Shown here in pieces: positions 2,859 through 20,009 of a DNA stretch of 32,310 bases. The stretch spans positions 1-32,310 of the forward strand of contig JAEOTP010000003.1 of NCBI GenBank assembly GCA_016839765.1, in the 5' to 3' direction. Made by a program: the position numbers and the translations under genes. Below the pieces are notes generated by a model. The model was not told where the DNA came from. It worked only from the letters and a program-made list of their open reading frames with translations, and ran no database searches. This DNA is from Promethearchaeota archaeon (lineage in GTDB: Archaea; Asgardarchaeota; Lokiarchaeia; Sigyniarchaeales; SOKP01). The stretch's first letter is position 1; each line of letters begins with the position of its first letter.

Positions 2859-4607
2859 TTAACTTCTCACAACCTTTTCTTTGGGAGCGTATACATCTTG
2901 AACAGCATAATTGTTGAAATTAATGCTATAATGGTCTCTCCAACTGTGTTTTACATCCTCTAGCATATCTTCCATAAGACTTTCTTTCACTTTTCCCTCT
3001 GCCCGTATTAACGCTCCCATAGGCACTGCCATAATTTCTCCATCCTTTACTACGATTTGCCCATCCTTAATAGTATACGCCGCAGCACTAAACGCTTTTT
3101 CAAGGTCACGGCCAGTGTATCTCTCAGGATTTATTTTGTAAACTGCCACATCTCCAATAGCTCCAACTCCTAAATGACCTCTATCCTTCATACCTAACGT
3201 CTTTGCGTTTCCAGCTCGAGTCACAATTGCTAATTCATACAAAGAATATTCCCGATCAATATCTGATAATGTAGTCGCAGTCGTTGCTTTCTGATGGACA
3301 CCATTCTTTAACATTTCCTCTCTACTCTTCTTATCCATTAACCACTTAAATGCAATAGGATAAGTGGTAAATGGTGCTCCATTAGGATGGTCAGTTGTAA
3401 AGCCAATTTGAAATGGATCCTTGACTAATAACATTAATTCCAGCCCTATCGCCCATTGAACCGCATTGACACTGTTTTTTGGAGCAAAGAAATAAGGTAC
3501 TACTCCTGAACCTGATTCCCCTTCGACTTGTCCGTTGACCCACTTAATTCCAGGTTTAGATCCCCAGCTCGATACGCCACCTAAATGATGAAGTGCGAAC
3601 TTTCATGCAGAGATGAGAAAATCATCTATGCCCCATGGTCCGTCTCCAGTCATTGTAGTTGTGGCGTATTTAGTGAATACTACTTGACCATTATCAATAG
3701 AGAGATGCTTATGTGCATTAACATACTCAGCAATTTCAGCAGCACCTGAGCTAAAATCACCCCAATTTGTACCTCCATAGGCGTTAAATTGACAATGCGT
3801 TACATGTAAGCTTCGTTCTCTTTCATTTCCTGCCTTTATATCCTCACATACTTTAAATGTTTCAAGAGAGTGCTTAAAATTTCCTGGATGTCCCAAATTA
3901 TTGCAGTGAACATGAATAGAATGTGGTAATTTTAGAATTTCGTTAACTTTAGCTAGGCTCTCTATAATTTGCCGAGGAGTAACATTCCAATGAAAAACTG
4001 GGTCGTCTAAAGATTCACAATTTTTGCCCCAAGCCCAATTTTCTACACCACCAGGGTTTACAATCTTAATTGCATAACCTTTTGTAGCTTTTAATATCCA
4101 ATTGACATAGGCAGTCAATTTATCGATATCATGATCTCGTATATATTTTAGGACAAACCAATTATTCCCATAAATTGGCATCGCAGCTTTATCAATAATG
4201 GGTATGTCAAGAAACTCTTCATGCGTATGTCGCGCTTCTAGAAGGGGCATAGCTGGTTCAACTGCTGTTGTATATCCCATTTGAGCATATCTATACCCAG
4301 TGAGCCACGTACTAAGTACGCTAAATCCTGTTCCGGAACGTGTTAATTTAGTTTTTTTCATAATAGATTCAGGAACCTTATCTTCTGGTCTTAATGCTCT
4401 ACCAGTATTCACTTTAGCTCCTGCGATGTGGGTGTGAATATCAACGCCACCAGGCATTATAATCATTCCTGATGCATCGATTACTTTAGCCTCTCCATTG
4501 ACTTTGTCGACAATGATTCCATCTTTAATATGAATTTCTTTCTTTTCACCATCAATATTATTCAGTGGATCATAAACAATTCCATTCTTTATGATTAAAT
4601 CGCTCAT
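2859..4607 (-). CDS. fwdA: Formylmethanofuran dehydrogenase subunit A homologue, interrupted by a putative 30-nt BHB intron
   Basis: This is a metal-dependent amidohydrolase of the FwdA/FmdA/FhcA type, which transfers formyl/formate units to or from a C1 carrier in the Wood-Ljungdahl route. Motifs seen: DIHTH (His58, His60), the likely carboxylated Lys181 in AIKIVNPGG, HVHCNN (His232/234), HVTHCQF (His268/271), MTGDGP and TTDHPNGAPF. Read straight through, codon 335 is TGA (3605-3603), yet strong family similarity continues in the same frame. Removing 3602-3631, which folds as a bulge-helix-bulge intron, joins GDGPW to E and FALHHLGG. It yields 572 residues, a normal FwdA length. The ATG at 4607 starts MSDLIIKNG. 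No other Fwd subunit is in the window, so it may act with subunits encoded elsewhere. Confidence 0.9.
3602..3631 (-). other. Putative 30-nt bulge-helix-bulge intron in fwdA
   Basis: On the minus strand, outer helix CGGAC (3642-3638) pairs with GTTCG (3600-3596) with one G-U. The central helix CATG (3637-3634) pairs with CATG (3607-3604). The two 3-nt bulges are GGG (3633-3631) and AAA (3603-3601), each 3' of the central helix. The inner hairpin is CA/TG, a T-C mismatch, AGATGA/TCATCT and the 5-nt loop TTTTC. Cleavage after the second base of each bulge, the standard rule for the archaeal splicing endonuclease, excises 3631-3602. This removes the in-frame TGA and leaves codons CCA TGG GAG TTC GCA (PWEFA). 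Pairing and frame are seen directly; splicing is inferred. Confidence 0.85.
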
Positions 4608-18646: not shown

Positions 18647-19997
18647 ATGGCAGTCAAAGTTGCTTTTATGCAATGCTCCGATATGGCAAAAACAATTGGT
18701 TTTTCCACGGAATTGCTGGGGCTGTCACCAAAGCCTACTTAATGCACATTTAGGCTTATTACCGATACTTCCAGCATTGGATATTGTATATTGGCCAGCT
18801 GTGGTAGATTTTAAATATGATTCGTTGAAAGCAAGGCCTGACGGAGATATTTTAGTCGGATTTGTAGAAGGAAGCTTAAGAACTAATGAAGACGTAGAGA
18901 GCGCTAAATTAATGAGACAAAAATGCCAATTAATTATTTCCTTTGGTAGCTGTTCATGTTATGGAAATGTACATGGTTTAGCTAATATTTGGGATGTTCA
19001 AGAAGCTATTAATAGAAAGTTTAAGGAAGCAGAATCAATTACTAATAAAGATACTGCTGGTGAACCTAGAGCACATATGCCTGGTTTTGCTAGTAAAATC
19101 GTACCATTGGATGAAGTCATAAAAGTGGATGCATATATTGCTGGATGTCCGCCGAAGCCAGAAGCAATTATTAGTGCAGTAGCATTCTTACTTGGACAAA
19201 AACCACAACCAAAAGCAGATTTAGCATTTTGTAATGATTGTGTCTTAAGAGAAAGTGGATGCTTATTAGAAAAAGGTACTCTATGTTTTGGACCGATCAC
19301 CAGTATAGGATGTTCATTAAAATGTACAAGTGATGGTAAACCTTGTGTTGGATGTTTAGGACCAAGTACTACCGTAGACATTAGAGTAAATAAACTTGGA
19401 GAAATGGTTAAAAATATTGATAGTCTTAGCTCTGGAGATAAGAAGAACTTATATGAATTTCTTGCTCTATTCTTAAATGTACCATTAATGGCAGGATTTG
19501 ATCTAGCTGGAGATATCTTAAAACAAATAAAACATAGTGGTGCTCCCCAAACTCCTTTAGCAGATATGCCTTCTGACACAATTAATATCGCTTCGAGCAT
19601 AATGACTTATTTGAGAGATCATCGAGAATTCTTAGAAATTTCAAATGTATGTGATACTTGTCCGAGAATAATTAACAGTAAATCCCAAATGACTAGAGTA
19701 AAAAGAGATTATGAGGGTTTACCAAATATGGAAGATTGTTTTATTGAACAAGGGTATCTCTGTGCGGGACCAATTACGAAAGCTGGCTGTGGTGGTATGT
19801 GTATACGGGTCAATTCTCCGTGTTCTGGATGCTTTGGTCAGACAGAATGGAATGTTGATCAAGCAGAGAGATTTGCTGAAATAGCAACAAAAGGCTTTAA
19901 TGTGGCTTTATCAAAAGATGAACTTCTTTCCCAAATTAAGGATAAGATTGGTTTTGCTGAAAAATTCACATTAGCAGCTAATAAAAACTATAGGTAG
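18647..19997 (+). CDS. mvhG: Group 3c [NiFe] hydrogenase small subunit, interrupted by a putative 31-nt BHB intron, with duplicated cluster module
   Basis: This is the electron-transfer subunit of an F420-non-reducing (Mvh/Vhu-type) hydrogenase. From ATG 18647 the first 12 codons read MAVKVAFMQCSD, then the frame fails. One frame over, the family sequence resumes as CWGCHQSLLNAHLG. Excising the bulge-helix-bulge segment 18683-18713 joins the two exactly in frame, with Cys13 and Cys16 forming the proximal-cluster CxxC. The 439-residue product continues with SFGSCSCYG, AGCPPKPE and two successive ferredoxin-like cysteine regions (CNDC to CVGC, and CDTC to CSGC), of which the second looks canonical and the first an extra copy. 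It is followed immediately by mvhA. A TTG start at 18660 would give an unrelated N-terminus. Confidence 0.92.
18683..18713 (+). other. Putative 31-nt bulge-helix-bulge intron in mvhG
   Basis: The central helix TCCG (18677-18680) pairs with CGGA (18708-18711). Bulges ATA (18681-18683) and ATT (18712-18714) lie 3' of it on each strand. The inner helix is TGG/CCA, one bulged C (18687), AAAAAC/GTTTTT and the 5-nt loop AATTG (18694-18698). The outer helix is short (GC/GC at 18675-18676 with 18715-18716). Cutting after the second bulge base on each side removes 18683-18713 and joins GAT to TGC, in frame. Pairing and frame restoration are seen directly; splicing is inferred. Its layout closely matches the fwdA intron. 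Confidence 0.85.
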
Positions 19998-20009
19998 GTG
20001 AAATTAAAA

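Follow-up and report, generated by a model that had tools for sequence, protein, structure and literature searches.

The pre-mRNA of cbf5 in the Crenarchaeota carries a bulge-helix-bulge (BHB) intron, which occurs in the Desulfurococcales and Sulfolobales and for which spliced cDNA has been reported (PMC2738675). A study of 2020 mentions, besides its own case in a 5′ untranslated region, no BHB intron of archaeal mRNA other than that of cbf5 (PMC7714728), and both papers agree with the initial annotation of the DNA analysed here, which had taken BHB introns of protein genes to be known chiefly from cbf5. Among the coding sequences of archaea, crenarchaeal cbf5 was also the only one for which we found a confirmed BHB intron in the open-access literature. 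That literature yielded no BHB intron for any protein gene of Asgard archaea, nor for a gene encoding a hydrogenase or a formylmethanofuran dehydrogenase; the Asgard studies found in it deal with tRNA introns (PMC11291895). A crenarchaeal XPB-type helicase gene is a further possible intron carrier; the open-access literature yielded nothing on it.

The locus compared here with these systems lies in a window of 32,310 nucleotides, the whole stretch of DNA that was analysed, from a Lokiarchaeal (Asgard) archaeon that, judging from its genes, probably splices ordinary protein-coding messages. The host genome (G000) is most likely a metagenome assembly, of 3.32 Mb in 96 contigs, 96% complete with 3.5% contamination, and the window corresponds to its contig C46, for which the nearest homologues with a name come from Candidatus Lokiarchaeota.

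The insertion in mvhG

Positions 18647-19997 on the forward strand encode the small subunit of a [NiFe] hydrogenase of the Mvh type, and mvhA starts directly afterwards at 19998. The frame of the first 12 mvhG codons is broken from the rest of the gene by bases 18683-18713, excision of which restores a single frame running from MAVKVAFMQCSD into CWGCHQ. The features of the gene are as follows.

18647..18682, forward strand: mvhG exon 1, 12 codons (MAVKVAFMQCSD), aligned codon for codon with relatives and continuous with the solved MvhG 5odc_E
18683..18713, forward strand: putative mvhG intron, 31 nt, phase 0, missing in relatives, with a BHB at the junction
18714..19997, forward strand: mvhG exon 2, from CWGCHQ to the stop codon TAG, dN/dS 0.05-0.11 where estimable
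18675..18716, forward strand: mvhG BHB motif, with outer helix 18675-76/18715-16, central helix 18677-80/18708-11 and bulges 18681-83 and 18712-14
18684..18707, forward strand: inner hairpin of the BHB fold, with stems 18684-86/18705-07 and 18688-93/18699-704

The DNA directly upstream of the CWGCHQ codons was compared with that of mvhG orthologues from the same genus and the same family, in which exactly the 31 bases of 18683-18713 are missing, the very check that the initial annotation had proposed. The orthologues of the genus read VAFxQxSD directly into CWGCHQ, codon for codon and with no extra bases at the junction, and the mvhG of genome G018 also lacks extra bases here, carrying instead an insertion 36 nt further on. 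On these alignments, the 31 nt are therefore a species-specific insertion among the species sampled. When the DNA of the genus was searched for the intron region, both exons were matched and the insert was not. Once spliced in silico, the protein aligns without a gap across the junction with 5odc_E. The insert sits at a conserved site adjoining the CxxC of the proximal cluster.

Apart from the inserts, neither mvhG nor fwdA, the second gene considered below, has any other lesion, and both encode complete conserved proteins. Comparisons of mvhG with its relatives give dN/dS values of 0.05-0.11 in the estimable pairs, synonymous sites being near saturation, and the branch leading to the gene has accumulated 25 amino-acid substitutions versus 28 for the nearest relative, counted against an outgroup. 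These low ratios and equal branch rates thus point to purifying selection, with no sign of decay or relaxed selection in mvhG.

The BHB is composed of a central helix of four Watson-Crick pairs (UCCG, 18677-80, with CGGA, 18708-11), two bulges of 3 nt each (AUA, 18681-83, and AUU, 18712-14) and an inner hairpin of 9 bp with one bulged C. The coordinates, the frame break and the structure, including the 4-bp helix, the 3-nt bulges and the inner hairpin, were thus recovered as the initial annotation had described them. By homology alone, the insertion can be placed in three equivalent ways (0, -1 and -2 nt), of which only placement 0 carries the BHB; the BHB cleavage rule, with cuts between the second and third bulge bases, selects 18683-18713 among them. 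The cut sites proposed in that annotation coincide with this homology-defined junction and restore the frame. Its further claim, that the structure exceeds chance, was borne out by shuffling, since at most one in 20,000 shuffled inserts scores as well (0/20,000 with mononucleotide and 1/20,000 with dinucleotide shuffles). Across 0.8 Mb of the host genome, a comparable BHB was found in 49 of 4.8 million combinations of position and length, or about 1 in 100,000. The outer helix is short, at 2 bp, and structure prediction in sequence contexts of 60-81 nt favours a rival hairpin, GCAAU/AUUGC, over the BHB; with 91 nt of mvhG context the predicted minimum free energy structure is the BHB itself.

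A second insertion in fwdA

The window harbours a further interrupted gene, which the initial annotation had overlooked while its case for an mvhG intron gained support. This is a minus-strand homologue of fwdA, encoding subunit A of formylmethanofuran dehydrogenase, that an in-frame TGA splits in the list of open reading frames. The two inserts lie about 14 kb apart, and the fwdA features are as follows.

3632..4607, reverse strand: exon 1 of the fwdA homologue
3602..3631, reverse strand: putative fwdA intron, 30 nt, phase 1, with an in-frame TGA inside, extra relative to 14 same-genus orthologues, with a BHB
2859..3601, reverse strand: fwdA exon 2
3596..3642, reverse strand: fwdA BHB motif, with outer helix CGGAC/GUUCG (3642-38/3600-3596) and central helix CAUG/CAUG (3637-34/3607-04)

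Relative to the 14 same-genus orthologues that cover the site, the gene carries 30 extra nucleotides, which split a Glu codon after its first base. Excision at the BHB restores this Glu, the residue found in 14/14 of these orthologues and in the solved FwdA chain, and the spliced product aligns with the relatives and with the solved FwdA without a gap at the junction. By alignment the insert occupies a conserved site, beside the motif GDGPWE. Its BHB is more canonical than that of mvhG: it is canonical throughout, with a 5-bp outer helix, and both the 5′ bulge GGG and the 3′ bulge AAA are cut after their second base. None of 20,000 shuffles of the insert matched it.

Insertions in other genomes of the class

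MvhG and FwdA proteins were used to search 83 genomes of the class, and truncated, split or stop-containing matches were inspected. This recovered four further insertions of 30-32 nt, three in mvhG (G062, G018 and G085) and one in fwdA (G070), so that insertions are present in 4 of about 48 mvhG and 2 of about 59 fwdA orthologues. The case of G062, which belongs to another genus, is strong: its 32-nt insertion lies in the same codon 12 as that of the window, is missing from the congener G063, has a canonical BHB unequalled in 20,000 shuffles, and can only be placed inside the codon, after the G or the GA of GAT. That of G018 is good, being a 30-nt insertion at codon 24 with an in-frame TAA (0/20,000 shuffles), whose relaxed BHB, with a central helix of 3 bp plus a mismatch, is found at one of three placements allowed by homology. 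The remaining two are uncertain. In G070 fwdA, a 31-nt insertion near codon 194 forms a strong hairpin with a four-pair central helix, two of the pairs being G-U (2/20,000 shuffles), and the BHB cut falls one base off, producing Glu where the siblings have a conserved Lys. In G085 mvhG, removal of 31 nt at codons 9-10 yields MQLSD as in a sibling, and the BHB is weak, with 1,354 of 20,000 shuffles scoring as well.

Judged in this way, mvhA and an acyl-CoA-synthetase-like gene showed no insertion, although an intron near the N-terminus would escape such an inspection. An enrichment in mvhG and fwdA versus other genes is suggestive only, these two genes having been searched because they are interrupted in the window.

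Several other irregular genes came to light. G070 has two fwdA copies (L294 and L295), one with the 31-nt insertion and the other breaking off after residue ~191, close to the site of that insertion. The fwdA of G058 (L296, C164:320-2017) has an in-frame TAG and TAA with no extra bases; it is not of this intron kind and is possibly a decaying copy or the product of assembly errors. In G027, mvhA (L028:2390-3691) has an in-frame TAA near its C-terminus (HVAK*IIEDK), again with no extra bases, and in G017 (L013:494-709) the alignment of a YeeE-like permease is broken by two adjacent stops. A seemingly truncated mvhG paralogue in G005 was traced to a scaffold gap.

Scans of the host genome

A motif-only BHB scan, covering the window and 0.4-0.8 Mb of the host genome, gave no further convincing case; a decoy pairing rule produced about as many frame rescues as the true rule did, and the best-looking candidates were gene starts or noise. 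Likewise, a scan of coding potential across stops and frame changes in the same 0.8 Mb recognised no new intron, its candidates being a selenocysteine codon, gene boundaries and antisense frames. When 0.8 Mb of the host genome was compared with 1.2 Mb of a family member, about 52 genes were covered and an insertion was seen in fwdA only.

An HdrA-like gene (contig C33, L204:15254-17158) has two in-frame TGAs opposite Cys residues of a relative, which suggest the use of selenocysteine, and a candidate tRNA-Sec is located on contig C34 (L167). Elsewhere (L245:3068-3271), the host has C*VC where a relative has the motif CWVC, a stop replacing Trp.

Splicing machinery and tRNA insertions

The host genome encodes two EndA-family proteins, on contigs C72 and C82, and one RtcB. 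The first EndA most resembles the catalytic subunit from Aeropyrum pernix (3p1z_B). It retains all three triad residues (Tyr, His and Lys), and one of its lysines aligns with A. pernix K44, which lies in a loop specific to Crenarchaea and is required for broad substrate specificity (PMC6379350). The second protein lacks the catalytic His, and the host enzyme is, on sequence grounds, probably an (αβ)2 heterotetramer. By analogy, with the substrate range taken from PMC6379350, we infer that this endonuclease could act outside tRNA.

Insertions of ~17-32 nt are also found in the D, anticodon and T loops of host tRNA genes (L153, L157, L162 and L163), some of which carry two, and in one tRNA gene an insertion of 30 nt in the T loop has a central helix of four pairs. 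These insertions may be related to the protein-gene introns. A weak match to tmRNA (L165:1490-1593; 104 nt, 47.6 bits against a gathering threshold of 47) is more likely a disrupted tRNA gene.

Proposed origin and processing of the insertions

The 31-nt mvhG and 30-nt fwdA pieces are, on the sequence evidence, very probably BHB-type pre-mRNA introns. A 4-bp helix with two 3-nt bulges is present at the junctions of both window genes and of G062 mvhG; excision between bulge positions 2 and 3 is predicted to give a functional product for both window genes; and the host genome encodes both a splicing endonuclease and the RtcB ligase. In the proposed pathway, the insert would fold in the transcript into a short hairpin and pair with the exon directly upstream to form the BHB, both bulges of which would be cut by the EndA endonuclease, probably an (αβ)2 enzyme. 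RtcB would then ligate the exons, and the mature mRNA would encode intact MvhG or FwdA. Of this scheme, the anatomy, the phylogenetic distribution and the enzymes are observed; that the transcripts are cut and joined, and translated in their spliced form, is inferred.

Could the interruptions instead be strain-specific frameshifts or pseudogenes, with or without an alternative start? The unspliced mvhG frame is open from TTG 18660, so that a different N-terminus is conceivable, but such a protein would be without the conserved first strand, and no choice of start codon explains the internal TGA of fwdA. Neither gene is otherwise damaged, mvhG evolves under purifying selection at equal branch rates, and the same kind of insert recurs at a BHB in two genes so far apart and in other species; this reading is accordingly very unlikely. 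Slightly less likely again is translational bypassing, in which ribosomes would hop over the hairpin, a mechanism known from phage T4 gene 60 and the mitochondrial byp elements of Magnusiomyces. Each insert forms a short hairpin (30-32 nt), a length also seen in byp elements, and the phase 0 insert of mvhG does not separate hopping from splicing. A bypass element, however, lies between whole codons and leaves the residue unchanged, whereas the Glu codon of fwdA is split after its first base, which argues against hopping: a whole-codon hop would give Lys, splicing the Glu of every relative aligned. The G062 insert is likewise confined to the inside of a codon, bypassing gives no reason to expect a 4-bp helix with a 3-nt bulge on either side precisely at the junction, and the presence of EndA and RtcB also speaks for splicing.

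An assembly or sequencing artefact is conceivable in a metagenome assembly, yet a 30-31-nt artefact would not be expected to place a BHB right at the junction in each of two genes, or to recur in genomes assembled independently. The second putative intron of the window, together with the related insertions in other species, makes an isolated indel or an assembly error unlikely, the latter extremely so. Hardly credible at all is a reading of the fwdA TGA as selenocysteine with translation of the ten extra codons. Selenocysteine use by this organism is suggested by its candidate tRNA-Sec and by the HdrA-like gene, in which TGAs align with Cys, but the fwdA TGA lies within an insertion that has no counterpart in relatives rather than opposite a Cys, and the mvhG frameshift and the TAA stops of the G018 and G062 inserts would be left unexplained. 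Self-splicing group I or II introns were rejected, their ribozyme cores requiring hundreds of nucleotides against the 30-32 nt of the inserts.

The BHB introns, as we read them, appear to be recent and repeated gains, because the nearest sequenced relatives are without them and the insertions found in other species have different sequences and, for the most part, different positions. Their location at conserved sites would be expected either of a targeted element or of sites that tolerate only precise removal. A tentative and rather doubtful extension is that BHB mini-introns of ~30 nt insert repeatedly at conserved sites of mvhG and fwdA, two genes of H2/CO2 metabolism, as part of a continuing gain of introns in Lokiarchaea in which splicing may control the genes, and that they are perhaps related to tRNA introns.

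If these messages are spliced, then Asgard archaea, of all known archaea the nearest to eukaryotes, clear introns from ordinary metabolic mRNAs with the enzymes of tRNA splicing and acquire them on a species-level time scale. Gains confined to single species would also allow direct tests of how BHB introns are inserted. In Lokiarchaeal genomes, genes such as mvhG and fwdA would then be split or truncated by automatic annotation, and calls that score hydrogenases or CO2-fixation enzymes as absent may therefore be wrong.

Comparison with known systems

Small inserts in protein genes are also represented by putative 12-bp introns of an archaeal virus genome (Peng et al., via PMC2738675), which differ in length from those described here and whose splicing was not demonstrated there. 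The HVO_1309 intron of Haloferax volcanii, like the mvhG and fwdA inserts as we read them, makes an mRNA a substrate of EndA, but lies in the untranslated leader and leaves the reading frame uninterrupted (PMC7714728). Introns at non-canonical tRNA positions, abundant in Atabeyarchaeia and Freyarchaeia, share the Asgard setting, and tRNA introns of similar length occur in the host genome too; their hosts, however, are tRNAs and not mRNAs (PMC11291895). The cbf5 intron occupies one old position in one RNA-modification gene of Crenarchaeota and is documented by spliced cDNA (PMC2738675), whereas the mvhG and fwdA inserts take several positions in two Asgard energy-metabolism genes, each in one sampled species. 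In common with mvhG and fwdA as we interpret them, cbf5 has a BHB-like motif inside the coding sequence, its intron is short (36 bp in Staphylothermus) and sits in the codon of a functional residue, and it is cut between the second and third bulge residues by a hetero-oligomeric EndA (PMC2738675).
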